Notes under the pieces: generated by a model | What the model was told of the DNA's origin: nothing | The model's database searches: none | The model's input: only the letters and a program-made list of their open reading frames with translations | DNA from: Colwellia sp. Arc7-D | Lineage (GTDB): Bacteria > Pseudomonadota > Gammaproteobacteria > Enterobacterales > Alteromonadaceae | Length of the DNA stretch: 64,000 nt | Assembly: GCF_003061515.1 (NCBI RefSeq) | Contig: NZ_CP028924.1 | Location: 4,154,001 to 4,218,000 of the forward strand | Direction of reading: 5' to 3' | Made by a program: the position numbers and the translations under genes | In this document: positions 52,371 to 61,437 of the stretch, piece by piece | Position numbering within the stretch: the stretch's first letter is position 1 | How the letters are laid out: every line of letters begins with the position of its first letter

Positions 52371-53135
52371 TTATTTTTCAGCTTCAACTGTTACTGGTGA
52401 AAAGCGAATAGCATTTACTTTAGCTGTTGATTCACTCTGATTACGCAATTGAGCTAAACGATTAACTTGACCAACAGAGCCTAACATTGCGTGAATTGGA
52501 ATAAACAAACCACGTTTATGAAAATCAAGTACTTGCTCATCACTTAATGCTTGAATTTTCTTTTCGTCAACACTGTATAAGCCAACAAGTTTCTTAGTTT
52601 CACCTGAAGCAAAATTTACATTAAGCTCAAGTTCTAGTAATAAATCATTATCGACTAATTCTTTAATGAATTTTTCGTTCATTACTTCATTGTCGTATAA
52701 ACGACCCAGTGAATCTTGTACGCCTTTAAAGAACTCTGTGTCATTGCCTTCAGCATCAAACAACTCATGTTCATTATCTTCGCCGACAAATTTACTGTCT
52801 AAATCTATACAAGCCGTTAATGTTTTTTCTTTCTCAGGGTCTAGACCTAGAGAAAAAGGTGACATTGAAATACTTTGCGGAACATAAACTGCCTGCCAAG
52901 AATCTTCTTTATAATATAAGTTTTCGCCGGACTCTAAGCCCAACATAACAACACTACGGTAACGTTCGCTACCTTGATCTTTTACAAATACAACAGGGTA
53001 ACTCGTGGCCGCTTGAGAAAACTCGGGTGCGGTGATCGGTGCAATATGTTGAGTAGATACATTTGATAAATCACGTTTTGCAGCGATTTTAATATTCTGA
53101 TGAGTTTCTTTTTTAATCGGGGTAATGTTAGCCAT
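52371..53135 (-). CDS. SapC family protein (PF07277-like)
   Basis: 254 residues, soluble. SapC-type features: YPVVFVKDQGSERYRSVVMLGLESGENLYY near residue 50, WQAVYVPQSISMSPF and the central acidic LTACIDLDSKFVG. The C-terminus has LVGLYSVDEKKIQALSDEQVLDFHKRGLF. SapC was first linked to surface-layer and TonB-receptor loci; its function is unclear. The first roughly 38 residues (IKKETHQNIKIAAKR) are basic and likely disordered. It has its own terminator. The neighbouring small secreted gene is divergent. Confidence 0.85.
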   Translation of the reverse strand: MANITPIKKETHQNIKIAAKRDLSNVSTQHIAPITAPEFSQAATSYPVVFVKDQGSERYRSVVMLGLESGENLYYKEDSWQAVYVPQSISMSPFSLGLDPEKEKTLTACIDLDSKFVGEDNEHELFDAEGNDTEFFKGVQDSLGRLYDNEVMNEKFIKELVDNDLLLELELNVNFASGETKKLVGLYSVDEKKIQALSDEQVLDFHKRGLFIPIHAMLGSVGQVNRLAQLRNQSESTAKVNAIRFSPVTVEAEK

Positions 53136-53328: not shown

Positions 53329-53637
53329 ATGAATATAACAAAATACTTTTGTGCCGTAGCCATTTTGATCAGCCCAGTTATTTTAGCATCACCCAAAATA
53401 ACGGTCAGTTTTGGCGATTCAAATGGTTTTGCACAAGTAAAAATTAAAAACGAAACATTCGAGCCTTTAGCTTGTTATGTCGCTATAGATGGCCACAGAA
53501 TAAAATTTCAATTACAAGTTAAGTCTTCATCCCCTTGGATAAGTGCTACAGATAAACAGTTCAACTACCAAAATTTTAGTACTTGGTGTGACTACTTAGA
53601 AATTCATCCTAAGTATAAATCCTATCAAATATATTAA
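53329..53637 (+). CDS. Small secreted hypothetical protein
   Basis: 102 residues with a signal peptide (about 1-20, ending VILA) and a beta-rich mature part containing two cysteines (Cys48 in EPLACYVAI and Cys88 in STWCDYL) that could form a disulfide. Not recognised. Purine-rich sequence (AGAAAG) lies upstream of the ATG. It stands alone before the Fur-box region. Confidence 0.55.
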   Translation: MNITKYFCAVAILISPVILASPKITVSFGDSNGFAQVKIKNETFEPLACYVAIDGHRIKFQLQVKSSSPWISATDKQFNYQNFSTWCDYLEIHPKYKSYQIY

Positions 53638-53893: not shown

Positions 53894-53912
53894 GCTAATG
53901 ATAACAATTATC
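53894..53912 (+). promoter_or_regulatory. Fur box upstream of the iron/redox operon
   Basis: The 19-mer matches the classical Fur consensus (GATAATGATAATCATTATC) at 16 of 19 positions and carries the central ATGATAA...TTATC dyad. It sits directly upstream of the -35 of the predicted promoter and about 80 nt before the first gene. Confidence 0.75.
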
Positions 53913-53914
53913 AG

Positions 53915-53943
53915 TTGCGTTACGTTTTGTAACACCTTATAAT
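53915..53943 (+). promoter_or_regulatory. Predicted sigma-70 promoter of the iron/redox operon
   Basis: -35 TTGCGT at 53915-53920 and a perfect -10 TATAAT at 53938-53943, with a 17-nt spacer. The adjacent Fur box suggests repression by iron. The remainder of 53638-53893 shows nothing recognisable. Confidence 0.6.
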
Positions 53944-53994
53944 ATTTTGCATAACAACAATCGCTTTTTCGATAAAAACTAGGTTCAAAATAAG

Positions 53995-54981
53995 ATGAAA
54001 CTCAATTTCAACACTCTCATAGCGGCAGCAATATCTACGACAACTTTTATTGCTTCTGCAGGCGAAAATTTATGGGTTTATGCTAAAGGTACAGACACAC
54101 GTCCAGCTAACAGCTATGAATTTAAAATTGCTGACACTATTCGTTTAGATAAAAATGCGGGTGATCATTACACCTTTCACGATATTCGACCTGAAATTGA
54201 ATACGGTGTAACGGATAAACTCACCATTGCCGCTGAAGCGATTATTTTTATTCACGATTACGATGTAGGCTCAGAAGCAGATGGCGCGCCATGTCCAATG
54301 TGTGAAGCAGGCGATGGTACTGGCAAATTTAGCGATACACAATTTGCCGGTTACGAGTTGGCCATGAAATATAATGTTTTAAGCCCGTATAAAGATGCTT
54401 TCGGCTTTTCATATGGATTAAGTTATGAGCGTCGTGACAAGTATCGTTTAGATGGTGCTGACATTGATCAAAACTCATTTGTTGGAACGCTATTTTTCCA
54501 GAAAGATTTTCTTGATGACACTGTAATTACCGTACTTAATATTAAAACTGAATTTGAACGCAGAAAATCAGGTTCGGTTGTCGAAGATGAGTTTGCCGTT
54601 GATATCTCAGCAGGTATTTCATACCGTTTCGCACCACAATGGTTTATCGGCCTAGAGTTTAGACACCAGTCTGATTATTTAAACCCTCAAGATAAAGCAG
54701 AACAAGGCAATACTGAAGGCGGTTTTGATGAAGAAGGTTACACCCTTGGTTTAGATAAAACTAATTTTGATTTAACTGACTTCCGTATTGGCAGCCAACA
54801 TCAAAACGGTAACTATTTTGGACCTACATTGCATTTTGCAGAAAAAAAATGGTGGGCTACAGCGGGCGTTTTATGGCAAATCAGTGGCGGCGGCTCTGAA
54901 TATGCCGATGTACGAAATGGCCGTAACTGGGATGAGCATGAAAAAATGCACATCGGCTTATCATACGGCTATGAATTTTAA
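53995..54981 (+). CDS. Outer-membrane beta-barrel protein with CPMC motif
   Basis: 328 residues: signal peptide 1-22 (ending IASA), then a beta-barrel-like chain of alternating strands, ending GLSYGYEF with a terminal Phe as in outer-membrane proteins. An apparent loop near residue 100 holds CPMCEAGDGTG, a CxxC motif that could bind metal or be redox active. I believe similar proteins are annotated as DUF6662; this is recollection. It is the first gene after the Fur box, and a terminator-like hairpin lies between it and the FMN-binding gene. The role is probably metal or substrate passage across the outer membrane; unproven. Confidence 0.75.
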   Translation: MKLNFNTLIAAAISTTTFIASAGENLWVYAKGTDTRPANSYEFKIADTIRLDKNAGDHYTFHDIRPEIEYGVTDKLTIAAEAIIFIHDYDVGSEADGAPCPMCEAGDGTGKFSDTQFAGYELAMKYNVLSPYKDAFGFSYGLSYERRDKYRLDGADIDQNSFVGTLFFQKDFLDDTVITVLNIKTEFERRKSGSVVEDEFAVDISAGISYRFAPQWFIGLEFRHQSDYLNPQDKAEQGNTEGGFDEEGYTLGLDKTNFDLTDFRIGSQHQNGNYFGPTLHFAEKKWWATAGVLWQISGGGSEYADVRNGRNWDEHEKMHIGLSYGYEF

Positions 54982-55011
54982 TATTTTCAATTGTGTTGAT
55001 TGACCTCAATA

Positions 55012-55039
55012 AGGCTTACATTCATTTGTAAGTCTTTTT
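55012..55039 (+). terminator. Internal terminator/attenuator after the beta-barrel gene
   Basis: AGGCTTACA/TGTAAGTCT stem (9 pairs including one G-U), 6-nt loop, followed by a T run. It lies within the presumed operon, so it may reduce expression of the downstream genes relative to the first. Confidence 0.65.
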
Positions 55040-55072
55040 CGTATTAACCATATACAGCGGATTACTTAGATC

Positions 55073-55624
55073 ATGAGCATGTTACGCAGACGATTTTTGA
55101 AAGGTTTAGTCGCTACAGCGGCAAGTTTCGCGCTACCTATTCAGCTCGCATTTGCAAAAAATTATTTGACGATTGAACAGGCCCAAAAAATATTGTGGCC
55201 AGACCAAAACCTTACACCAACACCAATCACGTTAAGCGAAGCACAGGCAGATCTAATTGAAGAACTTGCTGATATTCGCGTCCGTAATCATTTTATAAAT
55301 GGCTGGCGCTCTGAAGATGGTGGATGGTTTATTGTTGATCAAGTCATAGGTAAACACGAAAATATCGATTTAGCAGTAGCGATTAGTGCTGAAGGTAAAG
55401 TGATGGGTATTGAAGTACTTACTTATCGTGAAACCTATGGTGATCAAATTATGCATCCAAAATGGCGAGCACAATTTTACGGTAAAGATAGCAGCGAATT
55501 TTTAAAGTTAGATAAACAAATCAGAAACATTTCTGGTGCAACACTGTCATGCCGACATGTTACTGACGGTATTAACCGACTTAACCACACTTGGTCTACC
55601 GTGTTGAGTAAGGTAGCGCGTTAA
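55073..55624 (+). CDS. Tat-exported FMN-binding domain protein
   Basis: 183 residues. The N-terminus LRRRFLKGLVATAASFALP is a clear twin-arginine signal peptide (cleavage near residue 28, AFA). The mature part has an FMN-binding domain (about 95-178) with the flavinylation motif SGATLS; Thr157 is the expected covalent FMN site. Family knowledge: such domains carry phosphoester-linked FMN placed by ApbE and pass electrons outside the cytoplasm. Neighbours are apbE 12 nt downstream, a His-rich membrane protein and a Rieske protein. The likely role is a periplasmic electron carrier in an iron-regulated reductase. Confidence 0.88.
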   Translation: MSMLRRRFLKGLVATAASFALPIQLAFAKNYLTIEQAQKILWPDQNLTPTPITLSEAQADLIEELADIRVRNHFINGWRSEDGGWFIVDQVIGKHENIDLAVAISAEGKVMGIEVLTYRETYGDQIMHPKWRAQFYGKDSSEFLKLDKQIRNISGATLSCRHVTDGINRLNHTWSTVLSKVAR

Positions 55625-55636
55625 TGGATAAAACAT

Positions 55637-56506
55637 GTGGCCTCTAATCACACAATAAAGCGCTGTAAGCCTTTGCTTGGTACCTTTATCGAAGTTGATT
55701 TGTATGGTGATCTACCAGAAAAAGATCTCGTGCATTGGTCAAATATCGCGTTCAATGAAATAGAACGCATCCACCATGCGCTGAGTTTTCACGCTCCAGA
55801 AAGTGACATATCAGTATTGAATAGAGCACTATTAACTGCACCACAATCTGCACACAATCTTACCGACGACCTATCAGTTATCTTAGCTTTTGCTCATGCG
55901 TTATTTAAAAGTACACAAGGCTATTACGATCTCAGCGTTGCTTCCAAATTAGTCAATGATAAGCACTTGCCTGAGCATTTATTTTTAGCTAATTCGTTCG
56001 AACATAATCAACCATTAGGCACATTTGCTGATGTCTTAATCAGTAACAACCAAATAAGCAGTAAGCGACCCATTATTATTGATTTAGGTGGAGTCGCGAA
56101 AGGTTATGCCGTTGACCAAGCGATTGCACTTTTACCCGAAGACATTTGCGGGAGCATTAATGCAGGTGGCGATATGCGTGTCATTGATTGGCAAAATAAA
56201 AAAGTAGAGATCAAATATGGCAAACGCTTCAGCGCCTTAAAAAAGCTACAAATGGCCAATACGGCATTAGCCACAAGTGCTAGTTATTATAATGAAGGTG
56301 GCTCACAATATTTTAATCCAATAGCTAACCATTATGTAAAAATTAAAGGCAGTATGTCGGTTTTTTCTGAAAAAGCCATGCACGCTGATGCATTAACGAA
56401 AGTTGCCTTGTTGGTCGAGCGCCAACAAGCAAAACAGATATTAACAGACTACAACGCCACTGCGATCAGCATTAATCGTTTTGGCTTTAGTCGTCAATTA
56501 ATCTAG
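55637..56506 (+). CDS. apbE: FAD:protein FMN transferase ApbE, without recognisable signal peptide
   Basis: Transfers FMN from FAD to a Thr of the target protein. 289 residues. Family motifs: KPLLGTFIEVDL at the N-terminus, the metal/FAD loop DLGGVAKGYAVDQA, NAGGDMRV and the C-terminal HADALTKVALL. The start is GTG 55637 (GGAT upstream); nearby ATG codons are out of frame. Unlike classical ApbE lipoproteins there is no signal peptide or lipobox: the sequence begins almost directly at the catalytic fold. It therefore probably acts in the cytoplasm, on the Tat substrate encoded just upstream. Next gene follows after 9 nt. Confidence 0.92.
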   Translation: MASNHTIKRCKPLLGTFIEVDLYGDLPEKDLVHWSNIAFNEIERIHHALSFHAPESDISVLNRALLTAPQSAHNLTDDLSVILAFAHALFKSTQGYYDLSVASKLVNDKHLPEHLFLANSFEHNQPLGTFADVLISNNQISSKRPIIIDLGGVAKGYAVDQAIALLPEDICGSINAGGDMRVIDWQNKKVEIKYGKRFSALKKLQMANTALATSASYYNEGGSQYFNPIANHYVKIKGSMSVFSEKAMHADALTKVALLVERQQAKQILTDYNATAISINRFGFSRQLI

Positions 56507-56515
56507 AGCATTTAC

Positions 56516-57019
56516 ATGTCGAATATCAGTCGAAAAATTGCCAAAAAATATCGTTATATTTTTTATTTTAATTTAGTAGTCAGTGCATTAAGCGGTGCAA
56601 CTTTCTGGCTACTGCGAGAATTTGCCATGGTCGAAGGTGACTTTGGGCCTGAATCGCACTTTTTGCAATATCCAACTTTGCAACTTCACGGTTTTGCAGC
56701 ATTTTTTATGCTAATGGCGTTAGGTGCTATATTTACTTCTCATATTCCAAAAACTTGGTACAAGGATCAAGCAAAAAAATCGGGGCTTACTATGCTCTGT
56801 TTTATCGTTTTTTCTCTCTTGTCAGCCTATTCACTTTATTATTTAGTTACTGAAGATTGGCACGTTTTACTTGGCAATGCCCATGCTATTGTCGGTATAT
56901 GCTTACCCGCTTTACTCTATTTTCACATTCGTACAGGTCGAAAATCGACACGTGGAAAAAACCGTCAGCCGATCAAAAACAATGATAAAGCTCGATCATC
57001 TGCTGGTAAAGTTTCATGA
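56516..57019 (+). CDS. Four-helix His-rich membrane protein (DUF4405/cytochrome b-like)
   Basis: 167 residues with four membrane helices (about 15-33, 55-75, 92-112, 119-138) and a basic cytoplasmic tail (RKSTRGKNRQ). Histidines at helix positions could ligate heme: His58 (LQLHGF), His76, His123 (NAHAIVG) and His137 (YFHIR). Family impression: DUF4405/cytochrome b561-like membrane electron carriers that occur beside flavinylated proteins. The neighbouring FMN-binding, ApbE and Rieske genes support a quinol-to-periplasm electron-transfer role. It overlaps the Rieske gene by 4 nt (ATGA). The heme assignment is inference. Confidence 0.7.
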   Translation: MSNISRKIAKKYRYIFYFNLVVSALSGATFWLLREFAMVEGDFGPESHFLQYPTLQLHGFAAFFMLMALGAIFTSHIPKTWYKDQAKKSGLTMLCFIVFSLLSAYSLYYLVTEDWHVLLGNAHAIVGICLPALLYFHIRTGRKSTRGKNRQPIKNNDKARSSAGKVS

Positions 57020-57414
57020 AACGCCGCTCATTTTTAAAAACGGCATGCTTAGCAAGTAACTGCTTATTACCGGCATGCAAAAGCACAATGGTTCATGTGG
57101 AATCAAAGCGAGTCGGTAAGCAAATTTTCATCGAAAAAACATTATTTAATCACCGTAGTAACGTTACCGTAGCCTATAATAAATATGCTATTGGTGTGGT
57201 AAAAATTGATAATGATCACTTCGCAGCATCGTTATTAGCATGCACACACAATGGCTGCGCACTTACACCAACAGAACTTGGTTTTATTTGTCCTTGTCAT
57301 GGCGCTAGATTTGACGCTTTATGGCAAGTAAAAAAAGGCCCTGCAGAACAAAATTTAACACGTTTTATCACCAGTACTAATTCACAGTCTGTCATTATCC
57401 ACTTAACCGATTAA
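57016..57414 (+). CDS. Tat-exported Rieske [2Fe-2S] protein
   Basis: 132 residues. A KRRSFLK twin-arginine motif opens the signal segment, which ends LLPAC, a possible lipobox (Cys21). The cluster motifs are CTHNGC (Cys76, His78, Cys81) and CPCHG (Cys92, Cys94, His95). Both extra cysteines (81 and 94) of the bc1-type disulfide are present, which usually goes with higher redox potential. It is small and stands alone rather than in a bc1 complex; its gene is translationally coupled to the His-rich membrane protein. The likely role is electron transfer between the membrane protein and a periplasmic acceptor. Confidence 0.9.
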   Translation: MKRRSFLKTACLASNCLLPACKSTMVHVESKRVGKQIFIEKTLFNHRSNVTVAYNKYAIGVVKIDNDHFAASLLACTHNGCALTPTELGFICPCHGARFDALWQVKKGPAEQNLTRFITSTNSQSVIIHLTD

Positions 57415-57424
57415 GCTATTGATT

Positions 57425-59341
57425 ATGTTTAAATTTACAACGACGTTGAAGTCTATAACGCATTTATTTTTAGCTGTATTACCTTGTCTAAGTTATGGCT
57501 ATACGGTCCCCGAGCCAAGTACCACTGAAACCATGACTATTTCTTATAATAAGTCGATAAAATCACTCGACGATAGTCGTACCAGTGACAATATTATGGT
57601 GCATCCCGAGCAAACTGTTCAAGCTCCGAATACGGTGGCAAATATAATTACACAGCAAGCAGGCGTTGCGCTCAATGGCCAAGGAGGATTATTTCAAAGT
57701 TACAATATTAGAGGCTTTAGTCGCTCACGTATTAAAACAGAAGTCGATGGCATACCTATTATCACCGATCGACGTGCAGGCAATGCCGTTTCTTTTATTC
57801 CAAGTGAATTAATTTCTGGGGTTTATATTCAAAAAGGACCTCAATCCACTTTATACGGTTCTGACGCCATGGGTGGCGTTATTAGTATTGCCACTAACGC
57901 ATTTAATAGCTCAGCAGTGGGCATAACCATGCAGCCTCAAGATAATGCACAACATATTTGGGCACGCTTTAATGGTGAGTCAATTAGCGCCAGTGTAATT
58001 CATCGTCAAGCCGACAATGGACGTTCTCCAAGTAATGAAGGTACCTCCAGCACTGAACTGAACACTCAATATCAACAACTGGCCGCCACTTTATCGGCAG
58101 CATTCACGTGGCATGATATTGATATTTTTGCTTCGAGTATTATCAGCCAAGGTGATGACATTGGAAAAAGTTCCAGTACCTTTCCTCAGCAACGGATCAG
58201 TAGCTATCCACAAGACGATCACTTGTTGTCACAAATTGAATTTTCATCACTAGGACAATGGAAAGTAAAACTCTATCAACATCAACAACAATGGCAAACA
58301 CACATAGTTCGTCTAGATGACAACCAAGCAACAGCCAGAAGTAATATCACTGACTACCAATCAAACACCTATGGTGCTTATGGCTCTTGGCTTGTAGATA
58401 ATACCGTACTCGGCCTAGAGTGGTTCGGGCGTCATAATATCGATATTAGTGAGCGTGAATTTACTAGTGGTGGCGAGCTTGCTTGGGCAAAAACCGTGGT
58501 TGATGCCGATGAAGATACTTACGCAGCGTATATTTTACATGATTGGCATGTTAACAAACTCACCCTAGCTACAGGTGCACGATTTGACAGTATTAATGTC
58601 TCTGCTCAACAGCAAACTAAACGCGATAATTTTTTATCCTTATCTGCTGATATTTCTTACACACTATCAGCACAAACTTTCGCCAGCATACAAATCGCGA
58701 ATGCGTTTCGCTTTCCAACAGTAAGTGAACTCTTTTTTTCTGGTGAAACACCCAGAGGGAATACCCAAGGAAATATGGATCTTGAACCTGAACAAAGCCT
58801 AGGGTTGCAAATATCGATAAACCACCAGTTAACACCTGAATTTTCCACACGTTTTAATGCCTACCATTATGATATTGATGACTATATAGAACGCTACACT
58901 CTCGATAACATTCGCTATTACCGTAACAGCGAGCGCGTAACGATCAGAGGCTTTGAACTCATTAATGATTGGCGCATTAACCCACAATGGCAAACAAGTT
59001 TAGGATTACAGTGGCAACAATCGCGTGATATAAATAACAATACGGTTGATGATGGTTTACCCAAAGCACTTAAATGGGCACTAAATTGGCAACATAATGC
59101 AATTAATATCCGTCAGCAATTAACGGTATTGCTCGAACGTTCTGATGTTGGTCCATCAGAAAGCACACAAGCTAGTGAACTTATTTGGCAAATAACAGGG
59201 GACTATCAACTCAGTGAAGATATAACCTTAAGTATGTCGATACTTAATATCACCGACAATGAATATCGAGCCTCAAGCGACGAAGACGCCGCTTATCAAC
59301 CTGAGCGTACTATCAATATAAGTGGCTTATGGCGCTTTTAA
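57425..59341 (+). CDS. TonB-dependent outer-membrane receptor
   Basis: 638 residues from ATG 57425 (TTG 57419 also in frame). The signal peptide (about 1-27) is followed by a TonB-box-like segment (ETMTISYNK) and the plug domain (about 60-165, with NIRGFSRSRIKTEVDG and GPQSTLYGSDAMGGVISI). A 22-strand barrel ends in a terminal Phe (ISGLWRF). The C-terminal NITDNEYRASSDE motif is typical of siderophore or heme receptors. Substrate unknown. Its place in a Fur-box operon points to a ferric chelate. Confidence 0.93.
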   Translation: MFKFTTTLKSITHLFLAVLPCLSYGYTVPEPSTTETMTISYNKSIKSLDDSRTSDNIMVHPEQTVQAPNTVANIITQQAGVALNGQGGLFQSYNIRGFSRSRIKTEVDGIPIITDRRAGNAVSFIPSELISGVYIQKGPQSTLYGSDAMGGVISIATNAFNSSAVGITMQPQDNAQHIWARFNGESISASVIHRQADNGRSPSNEGTSSTELNTQYQQLAATLSAAFTWHDIDIFASSIISQGDDIGKSSSTFPQQRISSYPQDDHLLSQIEFSSLGQWKVKLYQHQQQWQTHIVRLDDNQATARSNITDYQSNTYGAYGSWLVDNTVLGLEWFGRHNIDISEREFTSGGELAWAKTVVDADEDTYAAYILHDWHVNKLTLATGARFDSINVSAQQQTKRDNFLSLSADISYTLSAQTFASIQIANAFRFPTVSELFFSGETPRGNTQGNMDLEPEQSLGLQISINHQLTPEFSTRFNAYHYDIDDYIERYTLDNIRYYRNSERVTIRGFELINDWRINPQWQTSLGLQWQQSRDINNNTVDDGLPKALKWALNWQHNAINIRQQLTVLLERSDVGPSESTQASELIWQITGDYQLSEDITLSMSILNITDNEYRASSDEDAAYQPERTINISGLWRF

Positions 59342-59374
59342 TTCACACAAACATCAAAGAACAAACGAGTAGTG

Positions 59375-59899
59375 ATGAACTTTAATAGAATCAACCGCAG
59401 CACCCATCGATGGGCAAGTATAGCTATCGCCATACCCTTTTTGGTTATTTTAGTGACAGGGATTTTACTGTTATTAAAAAAAGAAGTTGAATACATTCAG
59501 CCAGCGAGCACAAAAGGTCAGTTCAACCAGCCCAGTATCAGTTTTTCGCAAATACTCACCATTGCTAAAACAGTAAAAGTTGCAGAAATAGACTCTTGGC
59601 AAGCCATAGATCGCTTAGATGTACGACCAAATAAAGGCATTATCAAAATACGCGCGAAGTCGCACTGGGAAATTCAAATTGATGCCACAACCGGAGAGGT
59701 TTTAAAAACGGCCTTTCGACGTTCAGATATCATTGAGCAGTTGCACGATGCAAGTTACTGGCAAGATAAAGCAAACCTCTGGTTTACACTGCCAATTGCC
59801 GTCATCATGATTGTCATCTCAATTACTGGGATCATTTTATTCTTTTTACCTTATTACCGCCGCAACAAAAACCAAAAGCTATTGAAAAATAAGCACTAA
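59375..59899 (+). CDS. PepSY-associated membrane protein
   Basis: 174 residues from ATG 59375. An N-terminal membrane helix (FLVILVTGILLLL) preceded by NRSTHRWASI, a periplasmic PepSY-like region (about 40-125, ending near GEVLKT) and a C-terminal helix (about 132-158, IAVIMIVISITGIILFF) give the PepSY_TM layout in short form. His residues in STHRW and EQLHDAS are the positions seen in PepSY-type reductases. Such proteins are often found beside TonB receptors and are thought to act in reduction of imported ferric siderophores. Last gene of the iron-regulated set. Confidence 0.85.
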   Translation: MNFNRINRSTHRWASIAIAIPFLVILVTGILLLLKKEVEYIQPASTKGQFNQPSISFSQILTIAKTVKVAEIDSWQAIDRLDVRPNKGIIKIRAKSHWEIQIDATTGEVLKTAFRRSDIIEQLHDASYWQDKANLWFTLPIAVIMIVISITGIILFFLPYYRRNKNQKLLKNKH

Positions 59900-60108: not shown

Positions 60109-61437
60109 ATGCTACAGGTGCTATTGGTTGATGACGATGCTGAATTTACAGAAGTCGCGTGCCAAATAATAGAATTTTTAGGTCATGATGTTTATGTAGC
60201 GTCTACCTTAAAAGAAGCAGAAGAATGGTTAACCAATCAACAATTTGATCATGTTTTGCTTGATTTTATGTTGCCCGATGGCAGCGGCTTACACTTGATA
60301 GATTTTTTGAAAAAAAATCAACTTAGCCCTTATGTGACTTTAATAACAGGTCACCCTTCGGTAAAAGGTATGCTTGCAGGCTTGTGTGGTCCAAAAGTTA
60401 ACTACATTGTAAAACCATTACAACGCGAAGATATTGAAGCGACACTGAATAGAAACACCAAAAAGCCCAAAAAAATCAACAGTAAAATGCCAACATTACA
60501 CTTTGGTTGCCTTGTAGGTGAGTCAAAACCTATGCAAGAGCTATATACTATGATTGAGCGCGTAGCTAAAACCTCAGCTAACGTAATGCTCATGGGAGAA
60601 AGTGGTGTAGGTAAAGAAGTTGTTGCGAATGCAATTCATGCATCCACTGGCGCAACTGACCCCATCATTGCTACCAACTGCGGGGCTTTATCAAAAGAGT
60701 TAATTAGTAGTGAGCTGTTTGGTCATGAAAAAGGCGCATTTACAGGCGCGGTTGCTCGCAAAGAAGGGGTATTTGTTAGGGCCGGCAATGGCACACTTTT
60801 TCTTGATGAAATAACTGAAATGCCGCTCGACATGCAACCAAATTTATTACGCGCATTAGAAAATAAGCGTGTTATCCCGGTTGGTGGTACACAAGAAATT
60901 GAAGTTAATTGTCGTGTAGTTTCTGCTACAAACAGAACAATGGCTGAATTAGCTGAAGGAAAAGTAATTCGTGAAGATGTGTATTATCGTTTAGCCGTTT
61001 TTCCAATTAGCATCCCATCATTGAGCGAAAGAAAAGAAGACATTCCTTTACTTGCCGAAGTGTTTTTACAACAGCTGAACAATGAAAATGATGCAGAATT
61101 TGTTTGGACAACAGCACAATTAGAGACATTAAAAAATACCCCTTGGCCTGGTAATGTTAGGGAGCTTAGACACGCTATACACCGTGCTTTTATTATGAGT
61201 GAACCAGCAACCAAAACCATACAATTACCAAGTAGTTTTATCTCGCCCTTTGCTGCTGCAACAAATCAATCATCTGCCGTATCGGCAGGACAAACAATTG
61301 AAGGGCTTGAAAAAGAGCTTATTCGTGTCACCTTAGATAAAGTTGATGGCAACAAAACACAAGCAGCTGAAATGTTAGGCATAAGTACCAAAACCTTATA
61401 CAACAGATTACATGCTTACGGTGACTTTACAGATTAA
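60109..61437 (+). CDS. Sigma-54-dependent response regulator (NtrC family)
   Basis: 442 residues: a receiver (about 1-115, acidic DDD near residue 8, acceptor Asp in LLDFMLPDGSG, Lys in YIVKPL) and an AAA+ domain (about 135-365). The AAA+ domain has Walker A GESGVGKE, the sigma-54 contact loop GAFTGA and FLDEITEMPLD (Walker B). A C-terminal Fis-type helix-turn-helix (about 400-440, NKTQAAEMLGISTKTLYNRL) follows. It therefore activates sigma-54 promoters when phosphorylated. Its partner kinase may be the CHASE3 kinase downstream. First gene of a signalling cluster. Confidence 0.95.
   Translation: MLQVLLVDDDAEFTEVACQIIEFLGHDVYVASTLKEAEEWLTNQQFDHVLLDFMLPDGSGLHLIDFLKKNQLSPYVTLITGHPSVKGMLAGLCGPKVNYIVKPLQREDIEATLNRNTKKPKKINSKMPTLHFGCLVGESKPMQELYTMIERVAKTSANVMLMGESGVGKEVVANAIHASTGATDPIIATNCGALSKELISSELFGHEKGAFTGAVARKEGVFVRAGNGTLFLDEITEMPLDMQPNLLRALENKRVIPVGGTQEIEVNCRVVSATNRTMAELAEGKVIREDVYYRLAVFPISIPSLSERKEDIPLLAEVFLQQLNNENDAEFVWTTAQLETLKNTPWPGNVRELRHAIHRAFIMSEPATKTIQLPSSFISPFAAATNQSSAVSAGQTIEGLEKELIRVTLDKVDGNKTQAAEMLGISTKTLYNRLHAYGDFTD

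Follow-up and report, generated by a model that had tools for sequence, protein, structure and literature searches.

A Fur-box operon of Colwellia sp. Arc7-D encodes a predicted periplasmic electron-transfer cassette that occurs with exchangeable TonB receptors

Gene content and regulatory features of the locus

The window analysed here is a 64-kb stretch of Colwellia sp. Arc7-D DNA, in which seven ORFs, all on the + strand, occupy positions 53894–59899 and are separated in order by 91, 12, 9, −4, about 10 and 30–33 nt (Table 1). Gathering cut-offs in Pfam were passed for DUF6662, FMN_bind, ApbE, Rieske, TonB plug, TonB barrel and PepSY_TM, so that every operon product except a membrane protein, here termed HisTM, reached a family threshold. 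The Fur box ahead of the first gene is the only match with three or fewer mismatches in the window, where shuffled sequences lead one to expect 0.01. ORF calls and the motif scan with shuffles confirmed the box and the seven co-directional genes described in a sequence-only reading of the same DNA. Its promoter claim stood in part: the −10 hexamer is perfect, whereas the −35 agrees at only 3/6 positions and a mechanical consensus scan requiring at least 4/6 per hexamer omitted the site. We regard this promoter as weak yet plausible, and by the position of the predicted box the operon would belong to the Fur regulon.

The interval between the first two genes holds a terminator-like hairpin, a feature absent from the sequence-only reading, that is kept, with paired changes, in Colwelliaceae (7/7 loci examined), and the first gene may therefore exceed the downstream genes in expression. 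The longest receptor ORF begins at TTG 57419, with ATG 57425 as the likely start; family searches took 57446–59341.

Table 1. Features of the operon (positions in the window)
Feature	Position	Strand	Basis
Fur-box-like operator, predicted	53894..53912	+	16/19 bases match the Fur consensus
Candidate promoter TTGCGT-17-TATAAT	53915..53943	+	beside Fur box; read by eye
DUF6662 outer-membrane protein, predicted 12-stranded channel	53995..54981	+	Pfam DUF6662 match
Terminator-like hairpin after gene 1	55011..55036	+	in 91-nt gap
FMN_bind carrier	55073..55624	+	PF04205 43.6 bits (cut-off 22); Tat-type RRxFLK leader; SGAT motif
Leaderless ApbE, a FAD:protein FMN transferase predicted to be cytosolic	55637..56506	+	PF02424 98.2 bits (cut-off 25.6)
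HisTM, four-helix membrane protein, predicted diheme b cytochrome	56516..57019	+	weak PF01292; H58, H76, H123, H137
Rieske 2Fe-2S protein, predicted Tat lipoprotein	57016..57414	+	PF00355 36.1 bits (cut-off 20.3); RR and lipobox Cys21
TonB-dependent receptor	about 57425..59341	+	PF00593 99.3 bits; PF07715 67 bits
Small PepSY_TM protein	about 59372..59899	+	PF03929 52.1 bits (cut-off 28.8)

Flavin carrier, ApbE and the four-histidine membrane protein

The carrier combines a PF04205 domain, an [S/T]GA[S/T] site and an ApbE partner, as expected of the flavinylated FMN_bind/ApbE class. Residues G155-A156-T157 are kept in 88/88 sequences, and T157 is the predicted site of FMN attachment. The RR test in the N-terminus analysis used a broad pattern rather than a Tat predictor. 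A recognizable ApbE core motif was present in 80/84 matches, the other four being left unscored for a leader. The N-terminus preceding the motif measured at most 20 aa in 62 of these, and the 18 longer ones contained no 12-residue stretch above 1.6 on the Kyte-Doolittle scale; as a control, the own-genome ApbE L177 has a lipoprotein-like leader. Cassette ApbE thus lacks the leader or lipobox export signal usual for extracytosolic ApbE, and the flavin is probably attached before the carrier is exported.

HisTM gave its best Pfam match to cytochrome b561 (PF01292, Ni_hydr_CYTB) at 21.3 bits, under the 30.1 cut-off, and 25/61 family members matched PF01292 at E<0.01. Its four histidines are kept in 85/85, 85/85, 84/84 and 84/84 sequences of the trimmed alignment; in the untrimmed alignment H137 is nearly invariant. 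A further HisTM alignment took in 61 of 85 matches. Helices 2 and 4 (residues 51–75 and 113–148) carry H58/H76 and H123/H137 at their ends, which gives two parallel helices with a bis-His pair at either end. This arrangement fits a diheme b cytochrome, with haem binding predicted. In comparison with cytochrome b561/Ni-hydrogenase cytochrome b, HisTM scores under the family cut-off and carries both His pairs on helices 2 and 4. A relationship to PepSY proteins was rejected (hhalign probability 7.7% over 35 columns). The window HisTM did not match PF14358 (DUF4405) at E≤0.1, and 4/61 family members did so weakly. Sequence searches of the PDB gave no convincing relative, and DUF4405, FezC and MsrQ were missing from the structure matches listed, a result that excludes none of them. 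DUF4405 proteins occur in apbE gene clusters and are described as six-helix (Huang et al. 2024, PMC11334425); on that description DUF4405/FezC cytochromes and HisTM are alike in being membrane proteins with conserved haem-ligand histidines and differ in helix number, HisTM having four.

Rieske protein, outer-membrane channel, receptor and PepSY protein

The Rieske ORF shares 4 nt with HisTM. Its 2Fe-2S ligands in the CxH...CxxH pattern (C76, H78, C92 and H95), together with C81 and C21, are kept in 28/28 sequences, and C94 in 27/28. Ala97 and Phe99 stand where Ser and Tyr are customary, for which reason a midpoint potential lower than in bc1 would be expected. Cytochrome b6 plus Rieske of b6f/bc1 complexes is among the closest known systems, and the operon has neither class trait: the bc1 iron-sulfur protein model TIGR01416 scored 39.6 bits, below its 97.4 cut-off, and Pfam and NCBIfam searches gave no bc1/b6f cytochrome b family match (Qo half) among the operon proteins.

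For the DUF6662 channel, whose alignment used 59 of 79 matches, a PDB sequence search returned nothing at E≤1. COG4313 outer-membrane channels share 9% identity with it, and Pfam places it in DUF6662, a family name that did not appear in the literature searched. The idea of a flavinylated barrel resembling DUF3570 was rejected, [ST]GA[ST] occurring in 1/75 sequences, at residue 19.

Receptor similarity bears on haem or haem-protein iron as the substrate, in which case the receptor would import haem and the reductase chain would aid periplasmic release or transfer of its iron. The top NCBIfam models are indeed haemoglobin/transferrin/lactoferrin (178.4 bits) and haem (162.1 bits), and PhuR is the best PDB sequence match (E 4.6e-13). 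Both scores nevertheless fall far under the curated cut-offs (323.75 and 316.85), leaving the receptor outside TIGR01785/01786; the PDB matches cover the plug region only, with the colicin I receptor (6.3e-13) and BtuB (2.3e-12) close to PhuR; receptors of other clades are distant; and the operon has no haem-ABC gene. We consider this reading improbable.

The PepSY protein, of about 175 aa, gave no PDB sequence match. It has a single pair of histidines, H12 and H125, kept in 22/22 sequences, and its family recurs in 21 other loci at 37–87% identity. Like the PepSY_TM reductases FoxB, CrpH and VciB, it has two conserved histidines and adjoins a TonB receptor. Each of the two FoxB haem sites has two histidines, whereas here one His pair is accompanied by a flavin chain.

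Nested conservation of the neighbourhood

Gene content around the cassette was tallied by distance, ignoring strand, and the ORFs called in high-GC genomes often extend too far at their start. A four-gene core (DUF6662 channel, FMN_bind carrier, ApbE and HisTM) was found in 66/81 loci across three phyla, and HisTM adjoined an FMN_bind match in 15/15 places among 398 sampled genomes. The channel was near-constant (69/81 loci). The small PepSY protein and TonB receptors join the core in part of the loci, the receptors forming three distant, well-supported groups that are non-orthologous between clades and of which two are accompanied by the PepSY protein. Rieske genes were present in 7/81 loci and, within this sample, are an addition made at the level of Colwelliaceae. 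Of 226 loci found, the best 80 were named, a choice that favours close relatives; contig ends clip some of them.

These tallies sorted the claims of the sequence-only reading. Its grouping of carrier, ApbE and membrane protein recurs, as does the link with TonB receptors and PepSY; the DUF6662 channel, absent from its title, is part of the conserved core. The seven genes as one travelling unit were not borne out across the 81 loci. Random break-up in relatives had been put forward as evidence against the proposal: the set does break up, but in a nested order, core being commoner than PepSY/receptor and these than Rieske.

Imelysins are described as likely proteins of iron uptake (PMC3143127). 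In genome G234 the core lies directly beside an imelysin-DHOR-imelysin-DUF1513 cluster, and in G139 a Rieske homologue adjoins a cluster of imelysin/DHOR/DUF1513 type. As a regular neighbour of the core this cluster was rejected (0/80 named loci, the best 80 of 226).

Fur-like boxes across relatives

Boxes matching at least 14/19 positions lay upstream of 26/72 cassette cores as against 9/521 control genes (Fisher 5e-19, with relatives not independent), the controls being mechanically called neighbouring ORFs of mutually related loci. Loci lacking DUF6662 or having <200 nt upstream were left out, as were L133 and L145, in which the OMP call was split; this kept 72/88 loci, and 65/81 in the comparison by receptor/PepSY. 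Such enrichment across genera supports the iron control proposed earlier. Among 65/81 loci compared, boxes accompanied 18/26 with receptor/PepSY and 8/39 others (p 1e-4); after removal of near-duplicates, of which eight were named and six were present in the set, the counts were 14/20 and 8/39.

Most Acidobacteriota, Verrucomicrobiota and Dyella-group loci have neither a box nor a receptor, so an iron role is unsupported there. A core that stands in these groups with no receptor, PepSY or Fur box would suit a periplasmic redox module of general use, in respiration or protein repair, that is switched on by iron limitation and has no direct part in metal uptake, receptor and PepSY being co-regulated neighbours. 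This we judge unlikely, since three distant receptor groups adjoin the core, one small PepSY family recurs beside it and the outer-membrane channel is near-constant. Copper acquisition is very improbable: as proposed for Bordetella CrtA/CrpH, the receptor would import chelated copper and the PepSY/flavin chain would reduce Cu(II). Fur boxes stand at the cassette, whereas the crtA promoter is reported without a Fur site; the layout is that of an iron system; imelysin-type clusters adjoin relatives; and the copper-receptor NCBIfam model gave the window receptor 31.4 bits, far under the haemoglobin/transferrin score.

Relation to described flavinylation clusters

In Meheust et al. 2021 (PMC8238504), iron reduction is proposed for PepSY-like flavinylation clusters, and Fur repression is reported for some. 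They share with our operon ApbE, a flavinylated substrate, a PepSY protein and sometimes a TonB receptor. The PF03929 protein lies four genes after ApbE, within the limit of five (PF03929/PF16357), and by this ±5-gene rule the operon is probably PepSY-like. The described clusters mostly have a DUF2271 substrate (2833/3220, usual rather than required), and PepSY is the protein put forward as their membrane wire. No DUF2271 match occurred in any of the seven operon proteins (Pfam); the core has instead a carrier of the FMN_bind family, a distinct four-His protein and the DUF6662 channel, and it exists without PepSY too. The cassette was not found described as a unit in our literature search, although the supplementary table of Meheust 2021 may list such clusters. 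No paper among those listed combined flavinylation/ApbE, Rieske and TonB; those with both Rieske and ApbE appear unrelated, and PMC9478572 and PMC12817903 mention Rieske, TonB and PepSY.

Proposed function and significance

We interpret the operon as probably a Fur-controlled periplasmic electron-transfer cassette that assimilates chelated metal, most likely Fe(III), with exchangeable receptors. The reductase interpretation proposed earlier is thereby kept for iron control, recurrence of the core and the receptor/PepSY link, and given up for the single unit and for Rieske as a general member. The carrier would receive its FMN from ApbE in the cytosol and be exported in loaded form, by Tat in the source organism. 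Electrons supplied by the membrane quinol pool or by a cytosolic donor may reach the periplasmic carrier by way of two b haems in HisTM; in Colwelliaceae the lipid-anchored Rieske protein would relay them onward, possibly at the outer membrane. The TonB receptor would bring in the chelate, probably together with the DUF6662 channel; the small PepSY protein, with its presumed haem, may act as a second reductase or docking partner; and a transporter whose gene lies elsewhere would take up the Fe(II) that reduction sets free.

A bolder version is doubtful: a complete trans-envelope iron-reducing wire, different from those described, in which a minimal four-helix diheme cytochrome, representing a flavinylation partner of a new class, would supply a carrier loaded in the cytosol and then exported. 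In Colwelliaceae this carrier would pass electrons to a Tat-exported Rieske lipoprotein anchored in the outer membrane, where ferric chelates would be reduced on arrival via exchangeable TonB receptors. If it were true, HisTM and Rieske, with their overlapping genes, would amount to a pared-down cytochrome b/Rieske pair that runs reductively.

To our knowledge, what powers periplasmic reduction of siderophore-bound iron in Gram-negatives is known for few proteins only. The cassette offers a compact chain with named residues (T157; H58/H76/H123/H137; C76/H78/C92/H95). It also suggests how flavinylation may proceed without FAD export, by cytosolic loading followed by export, and gives DUF6662 channels a likely redox context.

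Organization of the Fur-box operon

The operon lies within bases 4154001–4218000 of a single-contig 4.3-Mb genome, and its Fur-box-like sequence was the only match in the window to the Fur consensus with three or fewer mismatches (0.01 expected). Downstream of a plausible promoter, seven plus-strand genes encode, in order, a DUF6662 outer-membrane protein, an FMN_bind carrier, ApbE, a four-helix membrane protein with four conserved histidines (HisTM), a Rieske protein, a TonB receptor and a small PepSY_TM protein. All except HisTM passed Pfam gathering cut-offs. The hairpin between genes 1 and 2 was present in all seven Colwelliaceae loci examined (the window and L073–L078), with paired, two-sided base changes among them at stem positions 8–10. 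Since it is kept after gene 1, genes 2–7 may be read less than gene 1, and the element is possibly a leaky terminator or processing site favouring the channel gene. The predicted secreted protein encoded nearby has look-alikes at the equivalent position in L073–L076.

Location of features in the window and in comparison loci
Feature	Location	Remarks
SapC-family gene	window 52371–53135 (-)	5' flank of operon
Predicted small secreted protein	window 53329–53637	102 aa; 5' of Fur box; no Pfam match
Fur-box-like sequence	window 53894–53912	16/19 bases of Fur consensus
Plausible promoter TTGCGT-17-TATAAT	directly after Fur box	read from sequence; absent from mechanical promoter-scan list
Terminator-like hairpin AAGGCTT...	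window 55011–55036	in 91-nt gap between genes 1 and 2
NtrC-type response regulator	window 60109–61437 (+)	3' flank of operon
Third ApbE of the same genome (L178)	G000:C1:1423017–1423811	leaderless, as in the cassette; far from it
DUF6662 relative	L195 5306–6178	away from cassette
DUF6662 relative	L196 5709–6614	away from cassette
DUF6662 relative	L202 5895–6809	away from cassette
Rieske lipoprotein homologue and imelysin-DHOR-DHOR-imelysin-DUF1513 cluster	L035 3975–11580	adjoining; genome G139

Conservation of the core and exchange of its partners

A carrier-alignment scan of a species-genome collection gave 226 loci, the best 80 of which were taken. Among these, the carrier of Cognaticolwellia mytili reached 91% identity and the closest named relatives were Colwelliaceae, which, from this carrier relationship, we take to be the family of the window. 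Neighbour genes were scored by distance in 81 loci (the best 80 and the window): DUF6662 occurred in 69, ApbE in 70 and HisTM in 74, with all three accompanying the carrier in 66. A HisTM profile search of 398 sampled Pseudomonadota genomes returned 15 places in 14 genomes. Thirteen of these places are 3' of a strong carrier match at a distance of 0.80–0.94 kb, which leaves room for ApbE; at the remaining two, a weaker FMN_bind match is no more than 75 nt away. Strong relatives of DUF6662 (E<1e-60) were at 12 places in 11 genomes, and 11 of the 12 adjoin the carrier. Eight loci without DUF6662 have a different barrel gene directly 5' of the carrier (Porin_O_P in both tested), with ApbE and HisTM more distant, on the opposite strand or outside the fetched DNA; Porin_O_P barrels also stand beside the carrier in two sampled genomes. 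No description of a core of DUF6662, FMN_bind, leaderless ApbE and HisTM was found in the literature searched.

Cassette-free DUF6662 was seen as distant relatives in several large-genome Pseudomonadota and as a lone second copy in genome G531; no recognised core gene was found in the 12 kb fetched around the relatives in L195, L196 and L202.

Of the 81 loci, 23 had PepSY within 5.2 kb and 23 had a TonB receptor no more than 3.5 kb away. The small PepSY proteins of 21 other loci form a single family with that of the window (37–87% identity to it), and H12 and H125 occur in 22/22 sequences. Cassette-adjacent receptors fall into three distant, well-supported groups: a Colwelliaceae/Paraglaciecola type and an Emcibacteraceae/Kordiimonadaceae type (L091, L104), both downstream of the cassette, and a group of ten members divergently upstream. 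The small PepSY accompanies the first group and most members of the third; in L091 the PepSY protein is a larger one, and a search for PepSY at L104 found none. Three such distant groups beside one core make the receptors look exchangeable and the core constant. The window's own genome holds no close receptor paralogue (best other match E 1.3e-6).

The Rieske gene was found in seven of the 81 loci (L073–L078 and the window) and additionally in L034, from a genome of the same family (G134), with neither receptor nor PepSY in 19 kb. In 197 genomes sampled across the order, small and close Rieske relatives among the matches listed were confined to the window's genome, G134 and G139 (33–34% identity in the last); other listed matches with a ~200-aa open frame look like ordinary bc1 subunits. 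The flavin cassette is not on the 12-kb contig bearing the G139 homologue. Two papers contain the words Rieske, TonB and PepSY. No description of a Rieske lipoprotein in a chain built on this core was found in the literature searched.

Evidence for probable control by iron

Fur-like boxes were counted in the 300 nt 5' of DUF6662 in 72 loci, and 521 further genes from those loci served as controls. Boxes of at least 14/19 occurred in 26/72 loci versus 9/521 control genes (Fisher 5e-19, a p-value too small because the related loci are not independent), and of at least 15/19 in 15/72 versus 3/521. Boxes were commoner with a receptor or PepSY (18/26 loci) than without (8/39). Colwelliaceae scores were mixed: 16 for the window, one locus at 15, two at 14 and four at 13, the last being a score that 10–15% of shuffles also reach. 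The eight other-barrel loci have 14–15/19 boxes 5' of the barrel gene, counted without a control set. Most Acidobacteriota, Verrucomicrobiota and Dyella-group loci have neither box nor receptor (exceptions: box in L100 and L138; receptor in L108, L114 and L127); an iron role there is largely unsupported, and these loci may have a different regulator or substrate.

In genome G234 the core directly adjoins imelysin-DHOR-imelysin-DUF1513 genes, and a likely role in iron uptake has been described for imelysin-like proteins (PMC3143127); no imelysin-type neighbour appeared in the 80 named loci (best 80 of 226).

Proposed mechanism

Meheust et al. (PMC8238504) linked flavinylation clusters with PepSY, sometimes with TonB, to iron assimilation. 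Their criterion was that one or more target genes have a predicted leader; consequently, the window operon could already be in their data as PepSY-like. Huang et al. added DUF4405/FezC cytochromes to flavinylation systems (PMC11334425), and TonB and PepSY pairs have also been linked to copper (PMC12914433, PMC13038864). Low iron would lift Fur repression, as the boxes suggest; ApbE would load FMN onto the carrier in the cytosol, and the folded carrier, which has a Tat motif, would be exported by that route. Two b haems, predicted from the ligand pattern of HisTM, would bring electrons to the periplasmic face and reduce the carrier. Chelate delivered by the TonB receptor or the channel would then be reduced by the carrier, via Rieske where present, or by PepSY. 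On balance, we moderately favour reduction of metal chelates, the metal being iron, as the function of the cassette.
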